In this document: positions 13,405 to 31,320 of the stretch, one piece after another
How the letters are laid out: each line of letters starts with the position of its first letter
Numbering within the stretch: the stretch's first letter is position 1
Assembly: GCA_903918045.1 (NCBI GenBank)
Contig: CAIXCY010000221.1
Span: 1 to 45,338 of the forward strand
From: an uncultured Bacteroidia bacterium
Lineage (GTDB): Bacteria; Bacteroidota; Bacteroidia; Bacteroidales; Prolixibacteraceae
DNA length: 45,338 nt
Direction of reading: 5' to 3'
Position numbers and translations under genes: made by a program
The notes under the pieces: model-generated
What the model was told of the DNA's origin: nothing
What the model saw: the letters and a program-made list of their open reading frames with translations, nothing else
Databases searched by the model: none

Positions 13405-15180
13405 TTACCTCGGCAGCGAAAACAAGAACTCCAGTCCTCCATCTTTCCGTTTCCGTGCTGAAATCTCCCCTTTAAAGCTTATAATCGCGTTCTTTACAAT
13501 AGCCAGCCCTAAACCGGTCCCTCCCTGTTTCCGGGAGCGTCCGGAATCAACTCTGTAAAATCGTTCAAAGAGTCTTGAGAGGTGCTCCTCCTTCACTCCG
13601 GGACCATTATCAGAAAATGAAAAATAGTGAAACGAATTGTCTTCGTGATATTTGGTGATTGAAATGGTGATGTTGTCTCCTGCATAATTGACCGAGTTCT
13701 CCATGAGATTGCGGAAGACCGAAAAAATCAGCGAGTAGTTTGCGTTGATGATAAGATCATCCTGAATCGTGCATTCAACCTGGATGCTCTTTTGCCTGAT
13801 TTGGTCACTAAAACTCTCAATGACTTCAGTAATCGCCTTTTTTACCTGGACTTTTTCCCGGACATAAAGTTCTGAATACTCCTCGATCTTATTTAAAAGT
13901 GAGATGTCATTGACCAACTGAGTAAGCCGTTCCGATTGATTGTAAGCCTTTTCAATAAAATAGTGCTGTTTACTAAGGGCAAGGTCCGGATTGTTTAATA
14001 CGGTTTCAAGGTATCCTTTAACAGAAGAAATAGGAGTCTTAAGTTCATGTGAGATATTCGAGGTAATTTGTTGCTTCATTATGCTTCTGCGCATCAATTG
14101 CGTCTGGTCAGCAATTAAAATTTCGAAACTTTTATCCGGGAATATAATACACTGGATATGGAAATGAAACTTATCTTTTTGTATCGAATATTCAATACGT
14201 GGCAATTCATTCAACTGATAGGTCGTGTTTTCTGCAATTGTCTGGTCGATAAAGCGGTTCATCTCGCCTAACTCATCGGCAAGGAAAAGATTCTCAATTG
14301 CAGTGGTGGTCTCTTCTGAAATGATATTTATGTAAAAGATAAAATGACTATTATTCAGTATTGCCTTTTTGTCGGCAGAAAAGAAACCCACTCCTTCGTT
14401 CAGTACGAACAGGTGGCTGATTAACTTCTCTTTTTCGAGCATCAGCTCTGTTTTCGTTTTGCGTAGTTGCTTGTATAACAGAATGATTTCACGACTTATT
14501 AATCCCAGTTCATCATTTGGGAACTGGGTGTCCTCGTTTATATTAATATCCCCCTTACGTCTGACCTGCACTGCAAAATCCTTTAGTTTTGTGATCGAAT
14601 CAGCGATATGGTTTGCGATATATCGAAGGAGGAATCCAAAGGCAATAAAGAGAAATATTAAAAACAGGATAAAAGCGGTATCAACTTTTAAAAAGGCCTT
14701 GATCTGGGTATTGTAAATGAATGCAGCCCTGATGATATAATTAGGATACGATTTGGCAAAATAGATATATTTTTCGTTTGTAGTTGCGGATAGACGGATA
14801 TTCTCACCAGACCCCTCCTTAAGCGCCTGTACGATTTCTGGTCGCTGTTTATGATTTTCCATGTGCCTGTAATCGGTCATTGTATTATCATACAGCACAA
14901 TGCCCTCCGGGCTAATTACACTTATCCTAACTTTGGAGGCAGGAACCAGAACTTTGAGGCTGTCAAGTCTAGAAAATGCGTTATCCCTTAAGATGGAGTG
15001 GTGTTCAATATAGCGATTGGTCAGGTCGGTATATTCGTTTAAATTGGTTTCAATTTCGCCTATTCGGTAGTGGTGCTCCCGCTGATTCTGATAAAGGATA
15101 ATTGAGAAAGTAAAAATGCCAAAAAGAAGTAAATAGTAGAAAAATAATTTCCACTTAATCGTTTTTTTATCGAAAAACAT
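13405..15180 (-). CDS. phoR: Phosphate-sensing histidine kinase PhoR
   Basis: A 591-residue membrane kinase. TM1 lies at about residues 11-27. A periplasmic sensor domain follows (VRISVISPEGIVLYDNT), then TM2 near residues 168-188 and a HAMP-like linker. The kinase core has the H-box SNISHELKTPISSVKGYLE with phospho-acceptor His378, N-box NLMENSVNYA, G1 DNGPGV, F-box LFERFYRVD and G2 GTGLGLAIV. The gene is last in the operon, 15 bp after phoB. Its place with pst and phoU supports the PhoR call. In the family, PstSCAB and PhoU hold PhoR in its phosphatase state when phosphate is plentiful. Confidence 0.93.
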   Translation of the reverse strand: MFFDKKTIKWKLFFYYLLLFGIFTFSIILYQNQREHHYRIGEIETNLNEYTDLTNRYIEHHSILRDNAFSRLDSLKVLVPASKVRISVISPEGIVLYDNTMTDYRHMENHKQRPEIVQALKEGSGENIRLSATTNEKYIYFAKSYPNYIIRAAFIYNTQIKAFLKVDTAFILFLIFLFIAFGFLLRYIANHIADSITKLKDFAVQVRRKGDININEDTQFPNDELGLISREIILLYKQLRKTKTELMLEKEKLISHLFVLNEGVGFFSADKKAILNNSHFIFYINIISEETTTAIENLFLADELGEMNRFIDQTIAENTTYQLNELPRIEYSIQKDKFHFHIQCIIFPDKSFEILIADQTQLMRRSIMKQQITSNISHELKTPISSVKGYLETVLNNPDLALSKQHYFIEKAYNQSERLTQLVNDISLLNKIEEYSELYVREKVQVKKAITEVIESFSDQIRQKSIQVECTIQDDLIINANYSLIFSVFRNLMENSVNYAGDNITISITKYHEDNSFHYFSFSDNGPGVKEEHLSRLFERFYRVDSGRSRKQGGTGLGLAIVKNAIISFKGEISARKRKDGGLEFLFSLPR

Positions 15181-15195
15181 AATTACACATTAATC

Positions 15196-15882
15196 TCACA
15201 TTTCAAAATAATAGCCGAACCCCGGTTTATTGCGGATGTAACTGCCGTATTCTTCCATTTTGCGTCTCAGCCTCGTCATATTTACATCGACGGTACGATC
15301 TGTGACGATAACATCACTTTCCCAGATTCGGCGCAGGATCTCTTCTCTGGAAAAAATCCGTCCCGGTGTCTTGGCTAAAAGGGAAATAATCTCGTACTCC
15401 TTTCGGGTAAGTTCAATCTTTTTATCGCCCAGAATAAGCCGTTTTGTTTCCAGGTCAATCGCTAATTTCCCCATACTCAGTAAAGTGGAGGCCACTTCGG
15501 CAGGCGAGACTTTGGCTCTTTTTAAAACTGCCTTTACACGAGCCTGTAACTCCTTGATTGAGAATGGCTTTATGATATAGTCGTCGGCACCCAGGTTGAA
15601 TCCGGTGAGCATATCATTTTCAGCATCCCTAGCAGTCAGAAAAATGATAGGAACATCAAGATTGAGCTCTTTTCTGATCCTTTGAGCGAGGCTGAACCCG
15701 GATATTTTTCCCATCATCACATCCAATATCATCAGGTGAAATCCGGTAAGATCCCTCTTTAATGCCTCCTCAGCCGAAAATGAGGTTTCTACCAGATAAC
15801 CTTCACTTTCGAGATTAAATTGTAAAATTTCATTGAGATCCTCTTCATCTTCAACGACGAGGATCCGAAATTTTTCATTCAT
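15196..15882 (-). CDS. phoB: Response regulator PhoB
   Basis: A 228-residue OmpR/PhoB-family regulator. The receiver domain has the phospho-acceptor Asp54 in LMILDVMMG, Thr83 in FLTARD and Lys105 in YIIKPF. The winged-helix DNA-binding domain has ELTRKEYEIISLLAKTPGRI and RTVDVNMTRLRRKM near the C-terminus. It is followed after 15 bp by phoR and preceded by phoU. Its expected targets are direct repeats with an 11-bp period, and such repeats are seen upstream of the operon at 21896-21934. Confidence 0.94.
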   Translation of the reverse strand: MNEKFRILVVEDEEDLNEILQFNLESEGYLVETSFSAEEALKRDLTGFHLMILDVMMGKISGFSLAQRIRKELNLDVPIIFLTARDAENDMLTGFNLGADDYIIKPFSIKELQARVKAVLKRAKVSPAEVASTLLSMGKLAIDLETKRLILGDKKIELTRKEYEIISLLAKTPGRIFSREEILRRIWESDVIVTDRTVDVNMTRLRRKMEEYGSYIRNKPGFGYYFEM

Positions 15883-15899
15883 AACTATTTATCTTTGTT

Positions 15900-16559
15900 C
15901 TACTTCTTATGTTTTACAATTTCACCATTTACAACAAATGATATTGATTCAGCGATATTAGTCGAGTATCCTGAAATTCTTTCAAATAGATTGATAATGA
16001 TTAGGATATTTGCTGCAACAACTACGATTTCAGACTGATGCATCATCTCTGTTAGCATTTTTGAGGCTATTTCCCTGCACTCTTCCTTTATCTCTTCTGC
16101 TTTAGTTGTAACCCGTTCAGCAAATTCCAGGTTGTGTTCTTTTACCAATTCCAAAACGTCTGAAAACAAAGCCTTAGTTTTTTCTCCAATCATTTCAAGT
16201 TTAAGTTCCTGAACAAGCTTTTGGTAATCCTGAAGCGGTTCGATCCGTTTGGCAATGCTGACCGCATGATCGCCAATTCGTTCAAGATCGTTGTTTATCT
16301 TTAATGCTGAGATAATGTATCTTAGATCTGAAGCAACTGGCTGCTGGAGGGCAAAGATTTTCTGACACAACTTATCAATCTTTACATCAAGATTGTTTAT
16401 GTATTCATCGTTCGCAATCACCTTCTTTGCCAATGCCAAGTCTGACGTATTCAATGCCTGGATGACATCAATAACCTGATGATTTACCTGTGAACACATT
16501 AGCTTTACTTTGTGAGCAAGTTTATCGAGTTCTGAGTCGAATATTCTGTAATTTTCCAT
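15900..16559 (-). CDS. phoU: Phosphate signalling protein PhoU
   Basis: A 219-residue, all-helical protein made of two repeated three-helix PhoU bundles. Each bundle has the metal-binding pattern: ALNTSDLALAKKVIANDEYIN and KINNDLERIGDHAVSIAKRI. The second half has NLFERISGYSTNIAESISF. It links the Pst transporter to PhoR and keeps the Pho response off when phosphate is sufficient. It lies 27 bp after pstB and 17 bp before phoB, which makes it part of the same operon. Confidence 0.95.
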   Translation of the reverse strand: MENYRIFDSELDKLAHKVKLMCSQVNHQVIDVIQALNTSDLALAKKVIANDEYINNLDVKIDKLCQKIFALQQPVASDLRYIISALKINNDLERIGDHAVSIAKRIEPLQDYQKLVQELKLEMIGEKTKALFSDVLELVKEHNLEFAERVTTKAEEIKEECREIASKMLTEMMHQSEIVVVAANILIIINLFERISGYSTNIAESISFVVNGEIVKHKK

Positions 16560-16586
16560 TTTATAAATGTATTAAATTAATAATTA

Positions 16587-17345
16587 TCAACCAAAACGGC
16601 CAGTAATATAATCTTCAGTTTGTTTTTTGCTAGGGTTTGTAAAAATAGTTTTGGTTTTATCATACTCAATAAGTTCGCCTAAGTAGAAGAATGCGGTGTT
16701 ATCACTGATACGGGCTGCTTGTTGCATGTTATGAGTAACAATTACAATCGTGTAATGTTCTTTAAGTTGAACGATGAGTTCTTCAATTTTTGAGGTTGAT
16801 AATGGATCAAGAGCGCTGGCCGGCTCGTCCATTAATACAATTTCGGGATTGACTGCCAGCGTCCGTGCTATACAAAGTCGTTGTTGCTGTCCCCCTGAGA
16901 GTCCCAAGGCTGAATCTCCGAGCCTGTCTTTTACCTCATCCCATATTGCTGCATTCTTAAGGGCGGTTTCAACGATTTCTTCGAGCTGTTTTTTATCATT
17001 TATCCCGTTTATTTTCGGCCCGTAAGCAATATTTTCGTAGATCGATTTTGCAAAAGGGTTGGATTTCTGGAATACCATCCCCACTTTTTTCCTCAAATTA
17101 ACGACATCAATATTTTTATCATAAATGTTGATGTTGTCAATCATAACTTTCCCTTCGATTTTTACTCCGTCGATCAGATCGTTCATCCTGTTCAGACTCC
17201 GAAGAAAGGTCGATTTTCCACAACCGGAGGGCCCAATAAAGGCTGTTACCCTTTTTTCTGGTATTTTTATGGATATATCTTTCAGCGCAACTTTCTCGCT
17301 GTAATAAAGGAACATTTTCTCAGTATGGATTTTATCAAGTATCAT
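16587..17345 (-). CDS. pstB: Phosphate ABC transporter ATP-binding protein
   Basis: From the ATG at 17345 the product has 252 residues. A TTG two codons earlier overlaps the pstA stop codon and is a less likely start. It has Walker [11 protein letters not shown]-loop [10 protein letters not shown], signature [12 protein letters not shown], Walker [16 protein letters not shown] and H-loop [27 protein letters not shown] is characteristic of PstB. It drives phosphate import through PstCA using ATP at the inner face of the membrane. Only 2 bp separate it from pstA. Confidence 0.96.
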
Positions 17346-17347
17346 AA

Positions 17348-18253
17348 TCAACGATTTTTCTTTTTTCTGATTCTATATCTTAAAATGACTGCCGACATAT
17401 TTAGCGTAAATGTAAGCAGAAGGAGGACACATGTTGTACCGAACTGGATGGGTAAAGTCTGATCAACATTAGCCGATTGTGTTGTTAATACATAAATATG
17501 ATAACCTAAAACCATAAACTGATCGCTAAGTCCTGGCAAGGTAGCCAGATAATATGCTGCCCCAGTAAATAATATAGGTGCCACCTCGCCGGCTCCGCGA
17601 CTTACAGCAAGAATGGTTCCTGTCATGATTCCGGAAATCGAACCTGGGAGGACGACCTTACGTATTGTCTGCCATTTGGTTGCTCCCAGTGCAAGACTTG
17701 CTGCACGCAGATCCTGTGGTACTGTTTTCAGAGCCTCTTCAACAGACACAATAACAACCGGAAGTGTCAGAAGTGACATTGTAAGGCTAGCCCAAAGCAG
17801 GTTTGGCTGCCCCCATCTCAATTCACCACCAAAAAATGCACCGTCGATATGGGCGCCAACAAATTTTATAAAAAATCCTAAACCAAAGAGTCCATAGATA
17901 ATGGAAGGAATTACAGCAAGTGTTCTTACTGCAAATCGGATAGTTTTTGCTATAATCGAATTTTCTTTGGCATATTCGGTGAGATATATAGCTGTGATCG
18001 TGCCGAATGGCACTGCGGCTATTGACATGATAATTACCAATAGTGCTGTTCCATATAATGCCGGAAAGATTCCACCCTTTGTCATCCCTTCGGTCGGGAA
18101 ACTTGTCAAAAACTCCCAGGTAAGATGATCCTTACCACCGATAAAAATTACCAGTAACATCACAATTACAATAACAATGATGATTATGGCTGAGATTAAC
18201 GTAATTCCTTCAATGGCAATGCCTTTTATATTTTTTCTGATGCTGTTTATCAT
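17348..18253 (-). CDS. pstA: Phosphate ABC transporter permease PstA
   Basis: A 301-residue inner-membrane permease with about six membrane segments. The first ([20 protein letters not shown]) follows a short cytoplasmic N-terminus. The EAA-type cytoplasmic loop that contacts PstB reads [40 protein letters not shown] is typical of PstA. It forms the phosphate channel with PstC. Its ATG overlaps the pstC stop codon by 4 bp (ATGA), indicating translational coupling. Confidence 0.95.
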
Positions 18254-19416
18254 TTTCCCTGTATTCTTTTCATGAGTTTTCCTTTGACATAAAATTCAGC
18301 TATCGCATTGAGGATGAATGTAAAAACAAACAGCAACGATCCGATAAGAAAGAGTACGTTATAATGGGTATCCCCAAAGACAACCTCTGCCATCTCAGCT
18401 CCAATTGTGGCTGCAAGCGTTCTCACAGATTCGAACGGATTAAGGTCCATTAAAGCGGCATTTCCAGTCGCCATCAGTGCAATCATAGTTTCGCCAAATA
18501 CTCTTCCAATACCTAAAAGTATGGCAGCGAAAATTCCAGGTGTTGCAGCTGGTAGGATGACAAAAAAAGCTGTCTGCCATTTGGAAGCTCCCAGAGCCAG
18601 ACTTGCCTCATTAAATGATCTGGGAACTGCTGTCAGTGCATCTTCGGTTATTGTGAAAATTATCGGGATGGCGGCAATTCCCATTGCGATTCCTCCAACA
18701 AACGAATTTAACCTGGTGCTGTAATGAAAAATATTTTGTAGAAAGGTAGCTAATACCATAAGGGCAAAAAATCCGATCACAACAGATGGAAAACCAGCCA
18801 ATAACTCGATGGTTGGCTTAATTATCTCCTTCATTTTTTTATTGGCAAATTCAGCTGTATACAATGCTGCCAATATTGCGAGTGGGGCAGCAAAAAGCAT
18901 TGAAATTAAGGTTATTTTAAACGTTCCAATTATTAAAGAGAGGATGCCGTATCGAGGCTTATCTGAAACGGGCACCCAATCTTTTGTAAGCATTGTATTT
19001 AAAGCACTTTTATTGTCATCTGTTCCGCTGCCGGCGTTTACTGTATAGGTGCCTTTTGCCGGTGTTTTGTCCTTTTTCACCAATGTATCTGCAACAGCTC
19101 CATAGGTTTCCTGGCCGGTACCTTTGGAATCAACATCTGTAACAGCGCCATACGTTTCCTGTGTATCTTGCTTTGCCAATTCAGTGGGTGACTTTTTAAC
19201 TTCTTTTGAAGTATTAAAAATTGGGAAAGCTTCGCGGAAAACAAAAAAGAAAATTAGCACAATAATTGTGATAGAGAGTAAAGCGACACCTTTGATTATT
19301 TTTTCCGCCAGAAAATCCCCTACTCTGAACCGTTTCCGGGTAATGTCAATCAAGTCGGAAGGCTGACTGTCTGAACCTTGCGCTTTTGAACTCTTTACTT
19401 TATTTTTTTTTGTCAT
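18250..19416 (-). CDS. pstC: Phosphate ABC transporter permease PstC with long periplasmic insert
   Basis: A 388-residue permease. TM1 is at about residues 37-61 (GVALLSITIIVLIFFFVF). An unusual hydrophilic stretch of about 90 residues follows, before the core that starts at YGILSLIIGTFKITL. The insert contains a short repeated motif, QETYGAVTDVD and QETYGAVADTL, about 20 residues apart. The core has the coupling loop EASLALGASKWQTAFFVILP and GRVFGETMIALMATGNA. It is otherwise a normal PstC. The insert should face the periplasm, where PstS docks. It is 121 bp downstream of pstS and overlaps pstA by 4 bp. Confidence 0.93.
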   Translation of the reverse strand: MTKKNKVKSSKAQGSDSQPSDLIDITRKRFRVGDFLAEKIIKGVALLSITIIVLIFFFVFREAFPIFNTSKEVKKSPTELAKQDTQETYGAVTDVDSKGTGQETYGAVADTLVKKDKTPAKGTYTVNAGSGTDDNKSALNTMLTKDWVPVSDKPRYGILSLIIGTFKITLISMLFAAPLAILAALYTAEFANKKMKEIIKPTIELLAGFPSVVIGFFALMVLATFLQNIFHYSTRLNSFVGGIAMGIAAIPIIFTITEDALTAVPRSFNEASLALGASKWQTAFFVILPAATPGIFAAILLGIGRVFGETMIALMATGNAALMDLNPFESVRTLAATIGAEMAEVVFGDTHYNVLFLIGSLLFVFTFILNAIAEFYVKGKLMKRIQGK

Positions 19417-19461
19417 AAAGATTGGATCTTTGGGCAGATTGAATCAATTGTAAAACGAAGG

Positions 19462-19495
19462 AAGCGAATAACTTCTGTGAGAAAGTTATTCGCTT
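19462..19495. terminator. 13-bp perfect hairpin between pstS and pstC
   Basis: AAGCGAATAACTT (19462-19474) pairs exactly with 19483-19495 around an 8-nt loop. On the minus strand it follows the pstS stop (19538) by about 40 bp and precedes pstC. There is no strong T run, so partial termination or 3'-end protection of the pstS message is more likely than full termination. That would raise PstS over the permeases. Confidence 0.6.
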
Positions 19496-19537
19496 TTGAA
19501 TCGTTTCTAATGTGTTAAATTTCAAGTCATAGATTTA

Positions 19538-20377
19538 TTACTTGACAGGGAAGTAGCCCATATCAACAACCAGTTTTTGTCCTTCCGGACTTAGAATCCA
19601 GTCAATGTATTTTTTCATCTCTCCTGTTGGCCTGTTACGCAGGTACATGTAAAGATAGCGGGTAATAGGATATTCGCCAGTTTTGATAGTTTCTGCAGTT
19701 GCTGCGAAGGCAGGGCTGTTATCATCTTTCTTTACTTTACAGATTGAAATACCTTCAGCATAGGCTGCACCACCATATCCAATTCCGTAGGTGTCTTTTT
19801 TAACAGCATTTACAACTGCAGCTGTTCCTGGAAGGGTCTGACAGCTAGAAGCATAGTCCCCCATTACAACATTCTCCTGGAAGAATACATATGTTCCTGA
19901 ACTGTTCTCTCTTCCGTAAAGTTTAATAGATTGATCATCACCACCTACTTCTTTCCAGTTAGTGATTTCACCCCTGAATATTTTGCCTAGCTGAGCGACA
20001 GATAATTCTTTAACTTTACTCGCAGCATTGAGGTAAATTGTAATACCGTCTTTAGCACAGGCAACTTCAACACCCAGGGTATTGTACCTGGCCTTGAGTT
20101 TTTCCTTTTCGGTATTTTTCATTTTGCGGCTTGCATTAGCGATGTCGGTTGCGCCATTGATCAATGCAGAAATACCAACACCTGAACCACCACCGGTAAC
20201 CTGAATAGATACACCGCTATTGGTTTTCATATATACCTCAGCCCATTTCTGTGCCAAAATAACCAGGGTGTCCGAACCTTTTACAGTAATCCGCTCAGGA
20301 GCTGCGGTGAAGGCAAAGCAAACAACACCTAGCAAAACCGCTATGATTGCTGTCCTTAATACGTTTAATTTTTTCAT
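19538..20377 (-). CDS. pstS: Phosphate-binding periplasmic protein PstS
   Basis: From the ATG at 20377 the product has 279 residues and starts MKKLNVLRTAIIAVLLGVVC, a signal peptide ending near AFTAAPERI. A frame starting at 20467 would add 30 residues before it and is rejected. Mature motifs: TVKGSDTLVILAQKWAEVYM, QVTGGGSGVGISALINGATD, and GRENSSGTYVFFQENVV. The SDTL, GSG and SSGT segments are the phosphate-binding loops of the family. It captures phosphate that has passed the porin and delivers it to PstCA. The gene lies between two hairpins, after the porin and before pstC. Confidence 0.94.
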   Translation of the reverse strand: MKKLNVLRTAIIAVLLGVVCFAFTAAPERITVKGSDTLVILAQKWAEVYMKTNSGVSIQVTGGGSGVGISALINGATDIANASRKMKNTEKEKLKARYNTLGVEVACAKDGITIYLNAASKVKELSVAQLGKIFRGEITNWKEVGGDDQSIKLYGRENSSGTYVFFQENVVMGDYASSCQTLPGTAAVVNAVKKDTYGIGYGGAAYAEGISICKVKKDDNSPAFAATAETIKTGEYPITRYLYMYLRNRPTGEMKKYIDWILSPEGQKLVVDMGYFPVK

Positions 20378-20436
20378 TTTTTTGTTTTTGAATATTTTAT
20401 AATATAAGCTTTCATTTTTGGCTTCAAATATACTTT

Positions 20437-20476
20437 TAACAGAAGGTAATAAAACTGTTTTTATCACCTTCTGTTA
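20437..20476. terminator. 18-bp hairpin between porin and pstS genes
   Basis: Arms 20437-20454 and 20459-20476 pair with one mismatch around a 4-nt CTGT loop. On the minus strand it begins about 10 bp after the porin stop codon (20486) and about 60 bp before pstS. It has no long T tail. It may attenuate read-through or protect the porin message end. Confidence 0.65.
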
Positions 20477-20485
20477 GTCAGTTTA

Positions 20486-21850
20486 CTAGAACTTAGCCTG
20501 AATTCTTAATGTGAATACATTCTGAGGAACAACTTTGCTGTAATCCAATCCTTTTAACACAACCTGTCCGTCATTCTGAGTGTAATTTTCAGTATAATTG
20601 CTAACTCCTGCAGTAGTTCCAACTTTTTCATTCTGAACTATTTCGTAACAAGCTGTAATTCTGATGTTGTCATCAAAATAGTGGTGAAAGGCAAAACCAA
20701 AAGTTGATGTTGCAAGATCACTCTTGGAACTCATTTTCTTTGCAAGATTTGCAGTCGCAGCATATCCTTTAATGGTAACGTCTTTTCCGTTGATGTCAGT
20801 ATTTGGATCGTAGTAATCGTAACGGAATGCAAACTGATTCTTTTTACCAAGGTTCTTGATCAAATAGAGGTAGTAACCTGCAAAATTATTCTGAAAGTTT
20901 GCTACTCCAAGTGGTATTGCTGTAGTCGAAGCATAACCAATTGATGCATTCTTACCTGCAATATACTCACCTTTTACCGATAGGCCACCTAATACGTCAG
21001 CAAACAATTGAAATTCTCCACCGATCCAGTTTTTCCCGATTTTATCTCCGATTTTTGCAGTTGTAACTGTGGAGTAGTCACTTGAATAGGTTGTCGTAGC
21101 CATTGATTTCAAAGAACCAAAATAACCATGGGCTCCAAAATCAAGACCGCCAAAGCTGCCAAGTGGGAGGTTATAGGTTACGCGAGCCATAATATCTTTT
21201 GAATTGTCGTAGTCGATATTATCTGCGGCATTAAGGTTTGTACCTGCATTGTTGTTAATTGTAATCCCATCAGCTCCATTCAAAACGGCTAACTGGAAGT
21301 GAATAGGGACAGAAAGAGGATTATATTCCAGTTTTGCGCCAATTGCACGTTCGCCAGGATATAATGTTCTGATAACTAATGATCTTTCTGTTAGTTCGCG
21401 CTGGCTTGATGAATACTCAACTTCATAGTTAGGACGGTTGAATTTACCTGCCCATAAACTGAAAGTCTTTTTCCAATGTTCGTTTACAACAACATAGGCA
21501 TCTTTTAAGGAAAGGTTTCCCGGTGCGAAGTCAGGTTGTAATACGAATTTTACGCCATCTGTTGCTTCATAGGTGAATTTAACCCTTACTCTGCGTAATG
21601 AAAAATAGTTTTGCGATTTAGATAACAACGAAGGTGTTTCAAAATTCTGATACTGGGACTGAATATAACCAGATACTTTGATTTTTGTCAGTTTTGCGAG
21701 ATCTGACTCACTTGTGGCAGCCCTTTCGAGTAAACCGTTAACTTTTTCATTCAGTTCCGATATTTTTTCGGCTTGACTTTGTTCCTGAGCACTAAGGTTA
21801 AGTGCAATAATGGATACCAGTAAGAATAAAAATACTTTTAGCTTTTTCAT
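20486..21850 (-). CDS. Phosphate-selective porin O/P family protein
   Basis: A 454-residue outer-membrane protein. The signal peptide MKKLKVFLFLLVSIIALNLS is followed by a short coiled coil (AEKISELNEKVNGLLERA). The barrel has KVSGYIQSQYQNFE, FSLRRVRVKFTYEATDGVKF, PDFAPGNLSLKDAYVVVNEH and LWAGKFNRPNYEVEYSSSQR, and it ends in an aromatic C-terminus (FTLRIQAKF). This is the OprO/OprP family, whose trimers pass phosphate or polyphosphate. It is the first gene of the pst/pho operon, which agrees strongly with a phosphate role. The Pho-box-like repeats at 21896-21934 lie directly upstream. Confidence 0.9.
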   Translation of the reverse strand: MKKLKVFLFLLVSIIALNLSAQEQSQAEKISELNEKVNGLLERAATSESDLAKLTKIKVSGYIQSQYQNFETPSLLSKSQNYFSLRRVRVKFTYEATDGVKFVLQPDFAPGNLSLKDAYVVVNEHWKKTFSLWAGKFNRPNYEVEYSSSQRELTERSLVIRTLYPGERAIGAKLEYNPLSVPIHFQLAVLNGADGITINNNAGTNLNAADNIDYDNSKDIMARVTYNLPLGSFGGLDFGAHGYFGSLKSMATTTYSSDYSTVTTAKIGDKIGKNWIGGEFQLFADVLGGLSVKGEYIAGKNASIGYASTTAIPLGVANFQNNFAGYYLYLIKNLGKKNQFAFRYDYYDPNTDINGKDVTIKGYAATANLAKKMSSKSDLATSTFGFAFHHYFDDNIRITACYEIVQNEKVGTTAGVSNYTENYTQNDGQVVLKGLDYSKVVPQNVFTLRIQAKF

Positions 21851-21895: not shown

Positions 21896-21934
21896 TGTTA
21901 CAGTTCTGTTACAGCGCTGTTAAAAATTGTTACA
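21896..21934 (-). promoter_or_regulatory. Pho-box-like direct repeats upstream of the porin/pst/pho operon
   Basis: Read on the minus strand, four boxes follow each other: TGTAACA, TTTAACA, TGTAACA and TGTAACA (plus-strand starts 21928, 21918, 21907, 21896). Spacing is 10, 11 and 11 bp. PhoB-family regulators bind tandem half-sites with an 11-bp period, and phoB lies in this operon. Binding by this PhoB is inferred. Confidence 0.7.
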
Positions 21935-22085: not shown

Positions 22086-23510
22086 ATGATCTCACTAAGA
22101 TTCTTCAAATTTATAGCATCCTCTGCATCTTCAATTGGTGCGGGTCGTACGAATACGAATTTTAAGTCTGAAATAAAGCAATTTAATATTGAGAAGAGGG
22201 ACTTTGGTCCAGACTTTCATTGGGGTGTTGCCACTGCTTCCTATCAGATTGAAGGAGCCTGGGATAAGGATGGAAAAGGTGAATCGATATGGGACAGGTT
22301 TACCGCGAATCCTAAAAATGTAAAGGATCGAACAAATGGCCGGGATGCCACAGACTTTTATAATCGTTACGAAAGCGATTTGTTGTTGTTAAAAGAACTT
22401 AATTTCGAAAATTTCAGATTTTCATTTTCTTGGCCCAGGATCCTTCCTGAAGGGAAAGGTCAGGTAAATGAAAAGGGTATTGATTTTTATAACCGGATGA
22501 TCGATAAATGTCTTGAGCTTGGAATTGAGCCCTGGGCGATGCTTTATCATTGGGATTTGCCTCAAAAACTTGAGGATTTGGGTGGCTGGACCAACAGGGA
22601 TATCGTTGGCTGGTTTTCGGAATATGCTGATTTGTGCACACGCAGGTTTGGAGACAGAATTCATCATTGGATGGTGCTCAATGAACCTGCAAGTTTTACA
22701 ACACTGGGCTATCTCTCAGGTATGCATGCACCTCAGAAGAGCGGTATTGCAAAATTTCTGGCTGCTGTTCATCATGCTTCCCTATGCCAGGCGGCAGGTG
22801 GTAGGATTATCAGGGAAAATGTTAAGGATAGTCATATCGGGACTACTTTTTCGTGTGCTTATACTGAGCCTCAAAGACGATCTGGCAGACATCTGCGCGC
22901 TTCAGACCGGCTTGATGTAATGCTAAACCGATTATTTATAGAACCGGCGCTGGGAATGGGTTATCCTTACAAGGAACTTCCGTTTCTGCGCAAGATTGAT
23001 CAGTTTATTCTGCCGGAAGACCATGAAAATTTAAAGTTCGACTTTGATTTTATAGGTATTCAGAACTATTTTAGGGTAACATCAAAGCCTTCCTGGATTC
23101 CACTTATCTGGGCAAACCGTGTTAAACCTTCGCCAAAAGCAGAGGTCACTGCCATGGGATGGGAAGTGTCACCAGAAGGGATCTACGATATCATTATGCA
23201 ATTCGCCAAATATGGGATAAAGGAACTTATTGTCACCGAGAATGGAGCAGCTTTCCACGACCATCTAAAGAAAAGCGGTAAAATCAAGGATCGCCAAAGA
23301 ATCCACTTTTATCAGCGATACCTTCAGAATGTACTCCGGGCTAAAAATGATGGTGCCCCGGTCACTGGTTATTTTGCCTGGACTTTTATAGACAATTTTG
23401 AATGGGACGAGGGGAATCGTCCGCGTTTTGGCATCGTGTATAATGACTTTCAAACCCAGAAACGGACTGTAAAAGACTCTGGTTTTTGGTTTCGCGATTT
23501 GCTTAAGTAA
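22086..23510 (+). CDS. Glycoside hydrolase family 1 (beta-glucosidase type)
   Basis: A 474-residue retaining beta-glycosidase. The GH1 signature HWGVATASYQIEGAWDKDGK starts near residue 45. The acid/base Glu200 is in HWMVLNEPASF and the nucleophile Glu385 is in LIVTENGAAF. The C-terminus has GYFAWTFIDNFEWDEG. It cleaves terminal beta-glucosyl or similar residues; the exact sugar cannot be read from the sequence. The first 40 or so residues are an unusual extension for GH1 and only weakly resemble a signal peptide, so location is unsure. No other internal Met gives a complete domain. It stands divergent to the phosphate operon and just upstream of the PlcP-like gene. Confidence 0.92.
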   Translation: MISLRFFKFIASSASSIGAGRTNTNFKSEIKQFNIEKRDFGPDFHWGVATASYQIEGAWDKDGKGESIWDRFTANPKNVKDRTNGRDATDFYNRYESDLLLLKELNFENFRFSFSWPRILPEGKGQVNEKGIDFYNRMIDKCLELGIEPWAMLYHWDLPQKLEDLGGWTNRDIVGWFSEYADLCTRRFGDRIHHWMVLNEPASFTTLGYLSGMHAPQKSGIAKFLAAVHHASLCQAAGGRIIRENVKDSHIGTTFSCAYTEPQRRSGRHLRASDRLDVMLNRLFIEPALGMGYPYKELPFLRKIDQFILPEDHENLKFDFDFIGIQNYFRVTSKPSWIPLIWANRVKPSPKAEVTAMGWEVSPEGIYDIIMQFAKYGIKELIVTENGAAFHDHLKKSGKIKDRQRIHFYQRYLQNVLRAKNDGAPVTGYFAWTFIDNFEWDEGNRPRFGIVYNDFQTQKRTVKDSGFWFRDLLK

Positions 23511-23541: not shown

Positions 23542-23581
23542 TGTAATCGCTTATTAACCTGTTTGTAACCGTTTCGTAATC
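23542..23581 (+). promoter_or_regulatory. Pho-box-like direct repeats upstream of the PlcP-like gene
   Basis: Four boxes at an exact 11-bp period: TGTAATC (23542), ATTAACC (23553), TGTAACC (23564) and CGTAATC (23575). Each has TAA at the same place, as in the boxes of the porin promoter read in gene direction. A weak -7 candidate, TATGTTTT, is at 23587-23594. The array ends 37 bp before the ATG. Confidence 0.6.
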
Positions 23582-23618
23582 ATTTATATGTTTTTTCGTG
23601 GTGTTAAAATGTATATGA

Positions 23619-24464
23619 ATGGATAACAAGCGGGTAGTAGAATTGGTGGTGATTTCTGATGTTCATCTTGGAACCTCAGGTTGCCAGGCTGGAGAGTTGT
23701 TGAAGTATTTGAAGAGCATAAGACCAAAAACCTTGATTTTAAACGGTGATATTATTGACATCTGGCAATTTAAAAAACGATATTTCCCTAAATCACATCT
23801 AAAGGTCATCAAACATCTTATTGGACTTGCTTCTGATCGGTGCCCGGTCTATTACATTACCGGTAATCACGATGAGATGTTCCGCCGGTTCAGCGGGATG
23901 AAAATCGGTAAACTTCGCATCCTGAATGACCTTAAACTAGAACTTGGGGGTAAAACAGTGTGGTTTTTTCACGGCGATGTTTTCGATGTAGTGATGCAGT
24001 ATTCAAAATGGTTATCTAAATTGGGTGCCATTGGTTACGATACACTGATTTGGCTTAATACGCAGGTAAATTCGTTGCGTCGGTTTTTCGATCTTGAACC
24101 CGTATCATTCTCTAAAAAAGTTAAAGAATCGGTCAAAGGGGCTGTGAAATTTATCAATGCCTTTGAAGATACAGTCGCTACTGTGGCAGCACATAAAGAG
24201 ATCGAAACAGTTGTTTGCGGACATATTCATAAACCGGAAATAAGAGCAATAAGTATTGGAAATCAGAATGTAACATATCTTAATTCGGGAGACTGGATCG
24301 AGAATCTTACCTCACTGGAGTACAACGAGGGGCAATGGAGGATTTTCAATTTCCGCAAAGATTTTGTTGATCTTTCCGATGATACAGAATCAGAACACGA
24401 AAATATGGTAGATGTTAAAGTGAAAGATTTATTTAACAACATGCTGGTTGACTTCCGGAATTAA
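23619..24464 (+). CDS. Calcineurin-like phosphoesterase, resembles phospholipase PlcP
   Basis: A 281-residue cytoplasmic metallophosphoesterase without signal peptide or membrane segment. Metal-binding motifs are complete: SDVHLGTSGCQA (Asp14, His16), NGDIIDIW (Asp44), GNHDE (Asn83-His84), FHGDVFD (His118) and CGHIHKPEIR (His202, His204). NSGDWIENLTSL follows. Automatic pipelines tend to call such proteins UDP-2,3-diacylglucosamine hydrolase (LpxH). However, DVHLGTSGCQA, WLSKLGAIGYDTLIWLN, VKFINAFE and GDWIEN recall PlcP, which cuts phospholipids to diacylglycerol during phosphate starvation in Proteobacteria. A Pho-box-like array upstream and a glycosyltransferase 89 bp downstream fit PlcP better than LpxH. 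Family certain; PlcP role inferred. Confidence 0.82.
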   Translation: MDNKRVVELVVISDVHLGTSGCQAGELLKYLKSIRPKTLILNGDIIDIWQFKKRYFPKSHLKVIKHLIGLASDRCPVYYITGNHDEMFRRFSGMKIGKLRILNDLKLELGGKTVWFFHGDVFDVVMQYSKWLSKLGAIGYDTLIWLNTQVNSLRRFFDLEPVSFSKKVKESVKGAVKFINAFEDTVATVAAHKEIETVVCGHIHKPEIRAISIGNQNVTYLNSGDWIENLTSLEYNEGQWRIFNFRKDFVDLSDDTESEHENMVDVKVKDLFNNMLVDFRN

Positions 24465-24553
24465 GTAATTTTAATACGCACAAAGCCTAAAAGCTTTATT
24501 TTTTTGTTATCATCTGAAAAATAAAGTGTTAACTTAAATATTTAAAACTACCT

Positions 24554-25621
24554 ATGAAGATCTTATACGCGATACAAGGAACCGGAAACGGGCATATTAG
24601 TCGTGCACGTGAAATAATTCCATACCTTCAGGAGTATTGTCAGTGTGATATTCTTGTTAGTGGTACCCAATGTGATGTTGAACTCGGAGTACCGGTAAAA
24701 TACCGTTTCAAAGGGTTAAGTTTTTGGTTTGGCAAGAATGGCGGAATTGATATGTGGAACACCTCAGTCAATGCAAATCTTCCTAATTTGAGAAAGGAGA
24801 TTGCTCAGCTTCCCGTTGAGGAATACGACTTTGTGATCAATGATTTTGAACCGGTTTCGGCATGGGCATGCTACAAGAAAAAAATCCCTTGCATTGGGTT
24901 AAGCCATCAGGGATCACTTTTAAGTAAAAAAGTTCCGTTCCCGGTTAAATTGGATTATTTTGGACAATTTATTCTTCGGAATTATGCCCCGGCAATGATG
25001 CATTTTGGGTTTCATTTTGAGTCATACGACAAGAATATTTTTACACCGGTAATAAGAAGTCAGGTCCGAGAAAGTTTGATTGAAGAGCTCGATTATTATA
25101 CCGTTTATTTGCCCGCGTTTGATGATAAGCGGTTAATTAAAAAACTTTCCCATTTCGAAAATGCGAACTGGCATGTATTTTCGAAACGGGCAAAGGAGCA
25201 GTATCAGGTTGGGAATGTAATGATTAAGCCCATAACAAACGATGAATTTGTTACTGATATGGCGCAATCAAAGGGAGTTTTCTGCGGAGCAGGATTCGAA
25301 ACTCCTGCAGAGGCACTCTTTTTGGGAAAAAAGGTTATGGTTATTCCTATGAAAGGACAATACGAACAGCAGTGCAATGCCGCTTCGCTTGCCCAAATGG
25401 GGGTTCCGGTGATTAAAAGCCTTAAAAAAAGGCATTTCGAAAAGATTGAAAAATGGATTAATTCGGATGAGAAGATCGCTGTTTTTTATCCCGATATTAC
25501 AAGGATAGTAATCCGCAAGATTTTTGAAGTGAATGTTCAACGGGTTTTGCAAAATAATAACTGGGATCAGGGTTATCAGCTAACGCTGAAATCACCCGAT
25601 TATCCGCAGGTAAGCGTGTAA
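24554..25621 (+). CDS. MurG/GT28-like glycosyltransferase, possible glycolipid synthase
   Basis: A 355-residue GT-B fold enzyme. The N-terminal acceptor domain starts MKILYAIQGTGNGHISRARE with a glycine-rich loop like that of MurG and MGDG synthases. The C-terminal donor domain has GVFCGAGFETPAEALFLGKK and IPMKGQYEQQCNAA, where the Glu of ETPAEAL and the Gln pair should contact the nucleotide sugar. There is no signal peptide; it would act at the inner membrane face. It follows the PlcP-like gene by 89 bp on the same strand. A glycosyltransferase next to plcP makes glycolipid from diacylglycerol in known phosphate-starvation systems. The sugar and acceptor here are not known. Confidence 0.8.
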   Translation: MKILYAIQGTGNGHISRAREIIPYLQEYCQCDILVSGTQCDVELGVPVKYRFKGLSFWFGKNGGIDMWNTSVNANLPNLRKEIAQLPVEEYDFVINDFEPVSAWACYKKKIPCIGLSHQGSLLSKKVPFPVKLDYFGQFILRNYAPAMMHFGFHFESYDKNIFTPVIRSQVRESLIEELDYYTVYLPAFDDKRLIKKLSHFENANWHVFSKRAKEQYQVGNVMIKPITNDEFVTDMAQSKGVFCGAGFETPAEALFLGKKVMVIPMKGQYEQQCNAASLAQMGVPVIKSLKKRHFEKIEKWINSDEKIAVFYPDITRIVIRKIFEVNVQRVLQNNNWDQGYQLTLKSPDYPQVSV

Positions 25622-25787: not shown

Positions 25788-25863
25788 GCGGAAGTAGCTC
25801 AGTTGGTAGAGCATCAGCTTCCCAAGCTGAGGGTCGCGAGTTCGAGTCTCGTTTTCCGCTCCA
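25788..25863 (+). tRNA. tRNA-Gly (anticodon CCC)
   Basis: A 76-nt cloverleaf with the 3' CCA encoded (25861-25863). The acceptor stem GCGGAAG pairs with TTTCCGC with one G-U pair. The D-arm has AGCTCAGTTGGTAGAGC. The anticodon stem TCAGC/GCTGA holds the loop TTCCCAA with anticodon CCC, which reads GGG. The T-arm has the GTTCGAGTC consensus. It has its own promoter and terminator. Confidence 0.97.
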
Positions 25864-29657: not shown

Positions 29658-30455
29658 ATGCACTTCTTAAATACTTTTAATGAAAATCTGTTCCGTTCAA
29701 GGTTTGCAGTGATAATTGCAGTCGTGATTATCTTAAACACTGCATGCCATTCATTAACGGTTATAAAGGTGGAATCGCGTAATATCCGACTCGATTCTAC
29801 ATTGACGATAGCTCCTGATGCAAAGATAGAATCTGTTATCGTTCCCTACAGAAACATTATAATGCATGAAATAAATGAGGTCCTTTGTTACGCTAAGGTT
29901 CCACTTTATGGAGGGCATCCTGAGAGTCCACTGACCAATTTTTGTGCTGACCTTCTCCGAATCGAATCTGATTCGGTCTGTTTAAAGCAATTTCCGTCGA
30001 TTCATATAGATGTTTCCATGGTCAATCGGGGCGGTTTACGTGTCCCTATTCCCAAAGGGGAAGTCAAAGTTAAGGATATGTTTGAATTGATGCCTTTTGA
30101 AAATAAAGTGGTATTCCTGAAGATGTCAGGCACCGATCTACGCAGTTTTATAGACCACATGGCCGCCCGTGGCGGGGAAGGAGTATCAGGGATGAATTTT
30201 GGAATAAAGGAAAATAGAGGGATTAACATGCTGATTGAGGGAAAACCTCTCGATGATTCAAAAATTTACTGGCTCGCAACCAGCGATTATCTTGCCAATG
30301 GTGGTGACGGTAATGATGTCTTAAAAGGAATCAATGAAAGAGTCTCCTCAGGGGTAAAATTAAGAGATATGTTTATTGACCATTTACGCAAATTAGGAAA
30401 TCAGGGAATTGTTATTGAAGCTAATACAGATGGGAGGATTTACGATGCAAAATAG
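29658..30455 (+). CDS. 5'-nucleotidase C-terminal domain as a separate lipoprotein
   Basis: A 265-residue protein starting with a lipoprotein signal ending in LNTAC (Cys30). The mature part is the substrate-binding domain of UshA-type 5'-nucleotidases: PLTNFCADLLRIES, VNRGGLRVPIPKGEVKVKDM, FELMPFENKVVFLKMSGTDL and LATSDYLANGGDG. In UshA this domain lies after the metallophosphatase domain in one chain. Here it is a separate, lipid-anchored protein encoded before its catalytic partner and overlapping it by 11 bp. It probably binds the nucleoside moiety in the periplasm or at the surface. The same two-gene order is seen in other Bacteroidetes. Confidence 0.88.
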   Translation: MHFLNTFNENLFRSRFAVIIAVVIILNTACHSLTVIKVESRNIRLDSTLTIAPDAKIESVIVPYRNIIMHEINEVLCYAKVPLYGGHPESPLTNFCADLLRIESDSVCLKQFPSIHIDVSMVNRGGLRVPIPKGEVKVKDMFELMPFENKVVFLKMSGTDLRSFIDHMAARGGEGVSGMNFGIKENRGINMLIEGKPLDDSKIYWLATSDYLANGGDGNDVLKGINERVSSGVKLRDMFIDHLRKLGNQGIVIEANTDGRIYDAK

Positions 30456-31320
30456 GAGAGAATTTTTGCGCTTACTTGGTGCCGGAACCCTTGGTACGGC
30501 TGCACTTGGTACTCCGATTTCTTTACTGGCCGGACAAAAACCTGTTCATATTACCATTCTTCATACGAACGATTTTCATTCACATATTGACTCGTTTTCC
30601 AAAGATGCGCCACTTAATCCGGGGGAAGGTGGAATGGCAAGACGGGCAGCACTTATTTCCAAAATAAGGTCTGAAACTGAACATGTGCTTCTCTTTGACG
30701 CAGGAGACATCTTCCAGGGTACACCCTACTTTAACTACTTTAAGGCTAAACTCGATTTTGAGCTGATGACCCTGATGGGTTATGATGCTGCTACACTTGG
30801 CAATCATGAATTCGATAATGGACTCGAAGGTTTGGAAAGTCAGCTGAAGTTTGCCGGGTTTCCCATTATCAACTCAAACTACGATTTTTCAGATACTATT
30901 CTGGCTGGAAAGACAATGCCCTATAAAATTTTCAGGCGTGGTGGTGCAAAAATTGGTGTTTATGGTCTTGGAATAGAGCTACACGGTCTTGTGGATTCAA
31001 AAAATTACGGCAATACGCGCTATAACGATCCGCTCGAGACAGCTCTTAAAATGGAAAAACAACTCAAAGAAGAACATCATACCGATCTCATTATATGCTT
31101 GTCGCACCTGGGATATGATTACAAAGAGAATAAAATCAGCGATAAGGTAATCGCATCACAAACCCATCATACCGATCTGATCATCGGTGGACATACCCAT
31201 ACCTTTCTGAAAAAACCGGATTTAATCAGGAATAAATCTGGCAAAGAGGTTGTGGTTAATCAGGTAGGATTCGGTGGACTCCTCGTTGGAAAGGTCGACT
31301 TTTATTTGTCAAAACAATGA
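30445..31320 (+). CDS. 5'-nucleotidase metallophosphatase subunit, Tat-exported
   Basis: From the ATG at 30445 the product has 291 residues and starts MQNRREFLRLLGAGTLGTAA, a twin-arginine signal. A frame from 30409 would add 12 residues in front of it and is rejected. Dinuclear metal motifs: ILHTNDFHSHID, LLFDAGDIFQGTPYF, LGNHEFDNGLEG, CLSHLGYD and IGGHTHTFL. This is the catalytic domain of 5'-nucleotidase/UshA without the C-terminal domain. It releases phosphate from nucleotides or related esters in the periplasm, presumably after folding with metal in the cytoplasm. It overlaps the upstream gene by 11 bp, so the two are translationally coupled. Confidence 0.9.
   Translation: MQNRREFLRLLGAGTLGTAALGTPISLLAGQKPVHITILHTNDFHSHIDSFSKDAPLNPGEGGMARRAALISKIRSETEHVLLFDAGDIFQGTPYFNYFKAKLDFELMTLMGYDAATLGNHEFDNGLEGLESQLKFAGFPIINSNYDFSDTILAGKTMPYKIFRRGGAKIGVYGLGIELHGLVDSKNYGNTRYNDPLETALKMEKQLKEEHHTDLIICLSHLGYDYKENKISDKVIASQTHHTDLIIGGHTHTFLKKPDLIRNKSGKEVVVNQVGFGGLLVGKVDFYLSKQ

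Follow-up and report, generated by a model that had tools for sequence, protein, structure and literature searches.

A PlcP-type phosphoesterase and a PF13528 glycosyltransferase behind a Pho-type array: a putative phosphate-starvation lipid-remodelling operon in Bacteroidota

How might a member of the Bacteroidota exchange its phospholipids for phosphorus-free glycolipids when phosphate becomes scarce, and which transferase would supply the sugar? The question is raised by two adjacent genes in the 45,338-nucleotide stretch analyzed here (the window), which is contig C221 of a 5.36 Mb genome from an uncultured bacterium of the family Prolixibacteraceae. P0001 (23619..24464, + strand) encodes a 281-residue calcineurin-like metallophosphoesterase of the PlcP (phospholipase C) type, assigned by clade, metal ligands and identity, and P0002 (24554..25621, + strand) a 355-residue GT28/MurG-like glycosyltransferase recognized by profile search as PF13528; both open reading frames are present as described in an earlier model annotation made from the letters alone (the sequence-only reading). 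We consider it probable that the two form a PhoB-controlled operon for phosphate-starvation lipid remodelling that would convert phospholipid to diacylglycerol and diacylglycerol to glycolipid. Low phosphate would activate PhoR-PhoB; PhoB would switch on the pair from a four-box array whose architecture is common to the pst promoter; the PlcP-type enzyme would, judging from its clade, cleave a glycerophospholipid of the membrane, releasing diacylglycerol and a phosphorylated head group; and P0002 would transfer a sugar from a nucleotide-sugar to the diacylglycerol, yielding a phosphorus-free glycolipid and freeing phosphate. Behind this reading stand the identity of the genes, the clade of P0001, the conservation of the operon and of its array, and a separate LpxH elsewhere in the genome.

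P0001 is placed with PlcP rather than LpxH. A tree of 88 sequences, which are a hand-picked part of those collected and were run in a quick search with no bootstrap, split 66 PlcP-type rows, including PlcP of Sinorhizobium meliloti and Pseudomonas aeruginosa, from 22 LpxH rows, including LpxH of Escherichia coli and of the genome under study, with a Shimodaira-Hasegawa-like approximate likelihood ratio (SH-aLRT) support of 99; the tool warned of long branches meeting at the join of three gammaproteobacterial LpxH rows. P0001 lies outside the LpxH clade and, in the same tree, falls in a Bacteroidota clade of 38 rows (support 100), where a genome of the same order (G238) holds the sister of the Parabacteroides distasonis PlcP-type gene, suggestive of an origin of the window in the Bacteroidales. 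Pairwise identity of P0001 is 38% with the P. aeruginosa gene taken as PA3219, 35% with the S. meliloti gene taken as SMc00171 and 24% with E. coli LpxH. The two reference genes were identified here by their gene neighbours and mutual identity: that of P. aeruginosa is flanked by a glycosyltransferase gene and an adenylate/guanylate cyclase-domain gene, which we take to be cyaB (PA3217), and that of S. meliloti by genes for an acyl-homoserine lactone synthase and a LuxR-type regulator, presumably sinI and sinR. Their computed mutual identity of 47% fits the 46% printed in PMC8528852, and SMc00171 is named a phospholipase C in PMC3596328.

Residue by residue the same picture is obtained. P0001 carries D14, H16, D44, N83, H118, H202 and H204, which we take to be the full set of seven calcineurin-type metal ligands, so that the sequence-only reading was right in finding every one of them kept. 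The segments it had likened to PlcP rather than LpxH contain residues, among others D123 (in HGDxFD), G136 and Y140 (in an LGxxGYD insert), I203 (in CGHIH) and E234, that occur in 92-100% of the 66 PlcP-type rows and in 0/22 LpxH rows. The search for a separate lpxH that it had proposed turned up a 257-residue LpxH-type protein on contig C129 of the same genome, which groups with LpxH in the tree, and P0001 is therefore not the sole LpxH candidate. The LpxH reading of P0001 was rejected on the tree, the PlcP-only residues and this separate LpxH-type gene. P0001 is of the PlcP type, and its clade membership suggests that it would hydrolyze phospholipid to diacylglycerol.

The region upstream of P0001 holds a Pho-type array (23542..23581, + strand) of four boxes, TGTAATC, ATTAACC, TGTAACC and CGTAATC, whose cores are spaced at exactly 11 bp from position 23542 onward. 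Such an array had been claimed from the sequence alone, and it withstood randomization, as four cores arose in none, and three cores in 17, of 20,000 dinucleotide-shuffled versions of the intergenic sequence; a chance origin was rejected on this basis. Across both strands of the window, at least three cores were found only here and in the promoter of the porin-pstSCAB-phoUBR operon, which runs on the - strand from 21850 down to 13405, divergently from GH1-P0001-P0002, and starts 1.8 kb upstream of the pair, thereby bearing out the proximity noticed earlier. Its first gene encodes an OprO/OprP-type phosphate-selective porin (20486..21850, - strand, PF07396) and is followed by pstS, pstC, pstA, pstB, phoU, phoB and phoR (13405..20467, - strand, from profile searches), with PhoB (320.6 bits, cut-off 270) and PhoR (648.4 bits, cut-off 500) above the NCBIfam Bacteroides-type equivalog cut-offs. 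The matching array of this operon (about 21896..21934, - strand) reads TGTAACA, TTAACA, TGTAACA, TGTAACA, and in seven loci (the window and six of the genus) the pst promoter keeps the order TGTAA-TTTAA-TGTAACA-TGTAACA at 10-11-11 bp. The architecture common to the two promoters suggests that PhoB would bind the P0001 array.

Genome-wide, one perfect occurrence of the four-box pattern was found, along with two further places that deviate by two mismatches (reversed control 0). In 16 aligned upstream regions (the window, 14 loci of the genus and one of another genus) mean identity was 0.92 in the box cores, 0.63 in the spacers and 0.52 in the flanks; 12 of the 14 loci of the genus retain all four cores and the remaining two retain three, compared with two in the locus outside the genus. 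Among more distant relatives, a scan with a fixed TGTAAC consensus was weakly positive (three-box score of at least 12/18 in 27/123 regions versus 153/2460 shuffles) and was replaced by a test of the lag between TAAY elements in upstream regions that include three plasmid-record loci. Pairs at a 22-bp lag were present in 46/89 nearer and 9/34 farther upstream regions versus 4.5% of 484 control open reading frames, and pairs at an 11-bp lag in 33/89 and 10/34, respectively, versus 6.6% of the same controls; lags of 8 (21/89) and 19 bp (16/89) are likewise raised among the nearer regions, for no evident reason.

The pair itself is widely conserved. In a phylum sample of 296 genomes, with P0001 matches counted at E 1e-20 or better, 118 genomes (own included) held such matches, in which 88 nearer and 31 farther places were counted, the window itself excluded. 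Immediately behind the P0001 homologue and in the same orientation, a transferase gene is present at 64 of the nearer places, at a gap of 15-172 bp suggestive of a single transcript, and at 23 of the farther ones (L106 and L180 are one gene, counted once; hence 23/31 and not 24/32), that is, at 87/119 homologous places overall. P0001 was found in 14 of 17 other genomes of its own genus, the transferase being adjacent in all 14, and P. distasonis likewise has a transferase, also PF13528, directly behind its PlcP-type gene. A transferase match was present in 147 genomes, of which the adjacency script took the 73 strongest non-own and nine weak places; those left out, about 64 genomes of family f18 (by subtraction) and G018, G050 and G073, have no PlcP-type match. 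In Mitsuaria sp. 7 the PlcP-type gene adjoins ppk1.

To what family does the second enzyme belong? P0002 scores 107.7 bits on PF13528 (cut-off 25), 21.3 bits on the GT28 family PF04101 (cut-off 22; 22.8 in the whole-genome search) and 154.2 bits on NCBIfam TIGR00661, the 'MJ1255' subfamily, below the cut-off of 195.9. The description of P0002 as GT28/MurG-like finds a counterpart in a distant GT28-like C-terminal match at the PF04101 threshold; it does not extend to family membership, PRK13609 and MurG matching at E 0.01-0.04, far under their cut-offs. The segments GTGNGH and GFETPAEA..QYEQxCNA, which we would liken to MurG, are conserved across 30 transferase sequences, and the 17 transferases located behind 16 farther homologues and in P. 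distasonis gave an hhalign match of 100% (E 8e-41) with the P0002 profile. The expectation that the transferase would differ from Agt was borne out, since P. aeruginosa Agt1 is of the GT4 type (PF13692/PF13439) and gave no match to the P0002 profile (hhalign probability 0.6%), and P0002 is devoid of the GT4-type domains that would mark an Agt. An AlphaFold single-sequence model of P0002 (predicted local distance difference test, pLDDT, 41.6) was too poor to use and searches of solved structures with P0002 returned nothing firm. The predicted reaction of P0002, in its sugar and acceptor as well, is the glycosylation of diacylglycerol from a nucleotide-sugar donor. Lone relatives of P0002 (32-34% identity) were seen at four f18 loci (L369-L372) next to genes that by eye are uvrD-, aat-, arsA- and fabI-like; f18 is perhaps Chlorobiaceae, and a lone transferase of this kind might act independently as a glycolipid synthase, conceivably as the monogalactosyldiacylglycerol synthase MgdA of Chlorobaculum.

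Phosphate regulation of what appear to be matching homologues of P0001 and P0002 is already in print for Flavobacterium johnsoniae. In PMC8115612, two genes filed under 'Lipid remodelling' are induced on depletion of inorganic phosphate (Pi): Fjoh_4577 ('PlcP'), with a fold change (FC) of 8.59 and a false discovery rate (FDR) of 2e-77, and the pf04101 gene Fjoh_0541 of the PhoBR operon ('Glycosyl transferase'), with FC 5.42 and FDR 3e-49, the text of that paper using log2FC. F. johnsoniae strain CI04 has a PlcP-type gene 51% identical to P0001, in a non-Pho setting, and a cluster transferase-OprP-PhoR-PhoB-TonB receptor-lipoprotein that fits Fjoh_0541-0546 (names partly by eye) and whose transferase is PF13528 plus PF04101. 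The published induction and the conserved array common to the pst promoter are the two points that bear on a phosphate response of the pair. The excerpts returned by our literature searches contained no report of the lipid products of the F. johnsoniae homologues and no test of a partner glycosyltransferase for a Bacteroidota PlcP.

Several observations weigh against a remodelling operon of this kind. No same-strand transferase is adjacent at 24/88 nearer and 8/31 farther places; the 24 comprise 18 in genomes without a transferase match (E 1e-15), four with a match elsewhere and two second copies. Conversely, about 64 genomes of family f18 have a relative of the transferase and no PlcP-type match, so that the transferase also exists independently of PlcP. 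Between the CI04 transferase and P0002 the relationship is only distant (hhalign 96.5%), and the link to Fjoh_4577 was made through strain CI04 and not through the locus tag itself. In PMC12927429, the lipids of another member of the Bacteroidota, Labilibaculum euxinus, were stable at two phosphate levels, neither of which was expected by the authors to be limiting. A literature search by family name found no paper reporting the activity or the lipid products of a PF13528 transferase. This lack of a characterized member would also suit a pathway in which P0001 makes diacylglycerol under phosphate stress and the transferase uses a different acceptor, such as ceramide, isoprenoid phosphate or another lipid, or yields a non-glycerol glycolipid; Bacteroidota make many non-glycerol lipids, and a ceramide glucosyltransferase is annotated directly after the PlcP-type gene of Fuscovulum blasticum. 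We hold this to be rather unlikely in view of the pairing of the transferase with a diacylglycerol-making enzyme at 87/119 places, in the position that Agt1 has in P. aeruginosa. It is less likely still that the pair is phosphate-regulated but delivers diacylglycerol or head-group phosphate for some other use, with the sugar lipid minor and amino lipids taking the place of phospholipids. Amino lipids need no diacylglycerol, and the 15-172 bp gap at most nearer places, with the single transcript it suggests, also speaks against this; in its favour are the 18 genomes with a nearer PlcP-type gene and no transferase match, and the flavobacterium Dokdonia MED134, which has PlcP and is described with amino lipids (PMC4796936) and which counts against the remodelling operon as well.

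That P0001 might be a second LpxH, with the transferase acting on lipid A or another envelope glycan, draws on resemblance and annotation. LpxH structures are the best solved-structure matches of a middling AlphaFold model of P0001 (pLDDT 68.8), suggestive of an LpxH-like fold; the nearest NCBIfam model is that of LpxH (NF003743); and, among plasmid-collection relatives of P0001, 22/29 records are named UDP-2,3-diacylglucosamine diphosphatase, the other seven being unnamed under the match. The distribution of LpxH provides a further point for this reading, and one more against the remodelling operon. LpxH-type matches (E 1e-15) occur in 273/296 genomes, a count whose weaker matches may include the PlcP-type gene itself, and rechecking 19 genomes revealed two distinct genes, LpxH-type and PlcP-type, in 14 and the PlcP-type gene only in five, all of genus g103. 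All five checked g103 genomes (family f38; L215-L219) have a PlcP-type gene as their one LpxH-family match (E 0.001), so that the PlcP-type protein might act as LpxH there; alternatively, these genomes either are without lipid A or have another LpxH. Set against this are the tree support of 99, the PlcP-only residues, the co-occurrence of both genes in 14 of the 19 genomes, the Pho-type array before P0001 and the C129 protein, which scores higher on the LpxH model (92.7 versus 58.2 bits); since both fall short of the cut-off of 134, the score alone decides nothing. Altogether, we judge a second LpxH to be very improbable and retain the phosphate-starvation lipid-remodelling operon as the preferred reading.

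The gene preceding the array encodes a GH1 (glycoside hydrolase family 1) beta-glucosidase (22086..23510, + strand) that scores above the TIGR03356 cut-off and has its beta-glucosidase motifs, LNEP and TENG, intact. GH1 homologues (E 1e-60 or better) are present in 28/296 genomes, own included, and lie directly after the transferase in 5/20 other genomes of the same class with GH1 (gaps about 50-340 bp), these five belonging to families f3, f4, f6 and f11; G033 has the transferase and GH1 near a porin and PhoR/PhoB-like genes, without a PlcP-type match (E 1e-20). Within the genus, GH1 is near the pair in 11/14 loci, as flagged by hand from the neighbourhood listing, with the divergent porin visible beside it in six of them and pst genes also in five; in one of the 11 (L356) GH1 is only 50% identical and located behind the transferase. 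By our own estimate this recurrence exceeds what a single gene placed at random in 4-5 Mb would show, and the effective count is small because the loci share descent. A three-gene cassette is a doubtful proposition, in which PlcP would provide diacylglycerol, the PF13528 synthase would add the first sugar, and GH1 would act on the glycolipid, either removing the sugar once phosphate returns or building di- or oligoglycosyl-diacylglycerol by transfer; the plant GH1 enzyme SFR2, which transfers sugar on galactolipid, is a model for such a step. A second GH1 gene, 52% identical to that of the window, maps at G000:C225:6651-7982.

Downstream of P0002 the window holds a tRNA-Gly gene at 25788. Farther on, a 5'-nucleotidase is apparently split into a C-terminal-domain gene (29658-30455) and a metallophosphoesterase-domain gene (30409-31320); without an 11-bp array, it is a further phosphate-scavenging candidate.

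The exchange of phospholipids for glycolipids has been worked out in Proteobacteria (PMC8528852, PMC4796936), and this type of pathway, non-Agt transferases behind PlcP (PMC4796936) and a Bacteroidota PlcP and a Pi-induced transferase (PMC8115612) are already in print. To the extent of our searches, the new elements are an operon that includes a PF13528 transferase, the distribution of this operon over the phylum, the promoter layout and the GH1 neighbour. The locus provides a concrete and widely linked transferase candidate for Bacteroidota PlcP (87/119 places) and a promoter layout that is searchable phylum-wide, and it draws attention to PlcP-clade genes that carry LpxH-type names in public records, as in the plasmid collection.

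Among known systems, LpxH shares with P0001 its fold and metal site, whereas P0001 belongs to a separate clade and bears PlcP-only residues, and MurG, monogalactosyldiacylglycerol (MGDG) synthase and UgtP, all GT28, are related to P0002 by a distant GT28-type C-terminal match without common family membership. F. johnsoniae has, in CI04, a PlcP-type gene 51% identical to P0001 and a transferase of the same Pfam family beside OprP-PhoR-PhoB; these genes are not neighbours and the transferase is distant, whereas the window has both as an adjacent pair close to pst. In marine bacteria, types 3 and 5 of the plcP neighbourhood, as described in PMC4796936, likewise have a non-Agt glycosyltransferase behind PlcP. 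The PlcP-Agt systems of P. aeruginosa (PA3219, PA3218, PA0842; PMC8528852) and marine Alphaproteobacteria (PMC4796936), as described in those papers, resemble the window in the PlcP clade, the transferase directly behind and the Pho-type box, and the P. aeruginosa system differs from it in its transferase, GT4-type in Agt1 and PF13528/GT28-like in P0002.

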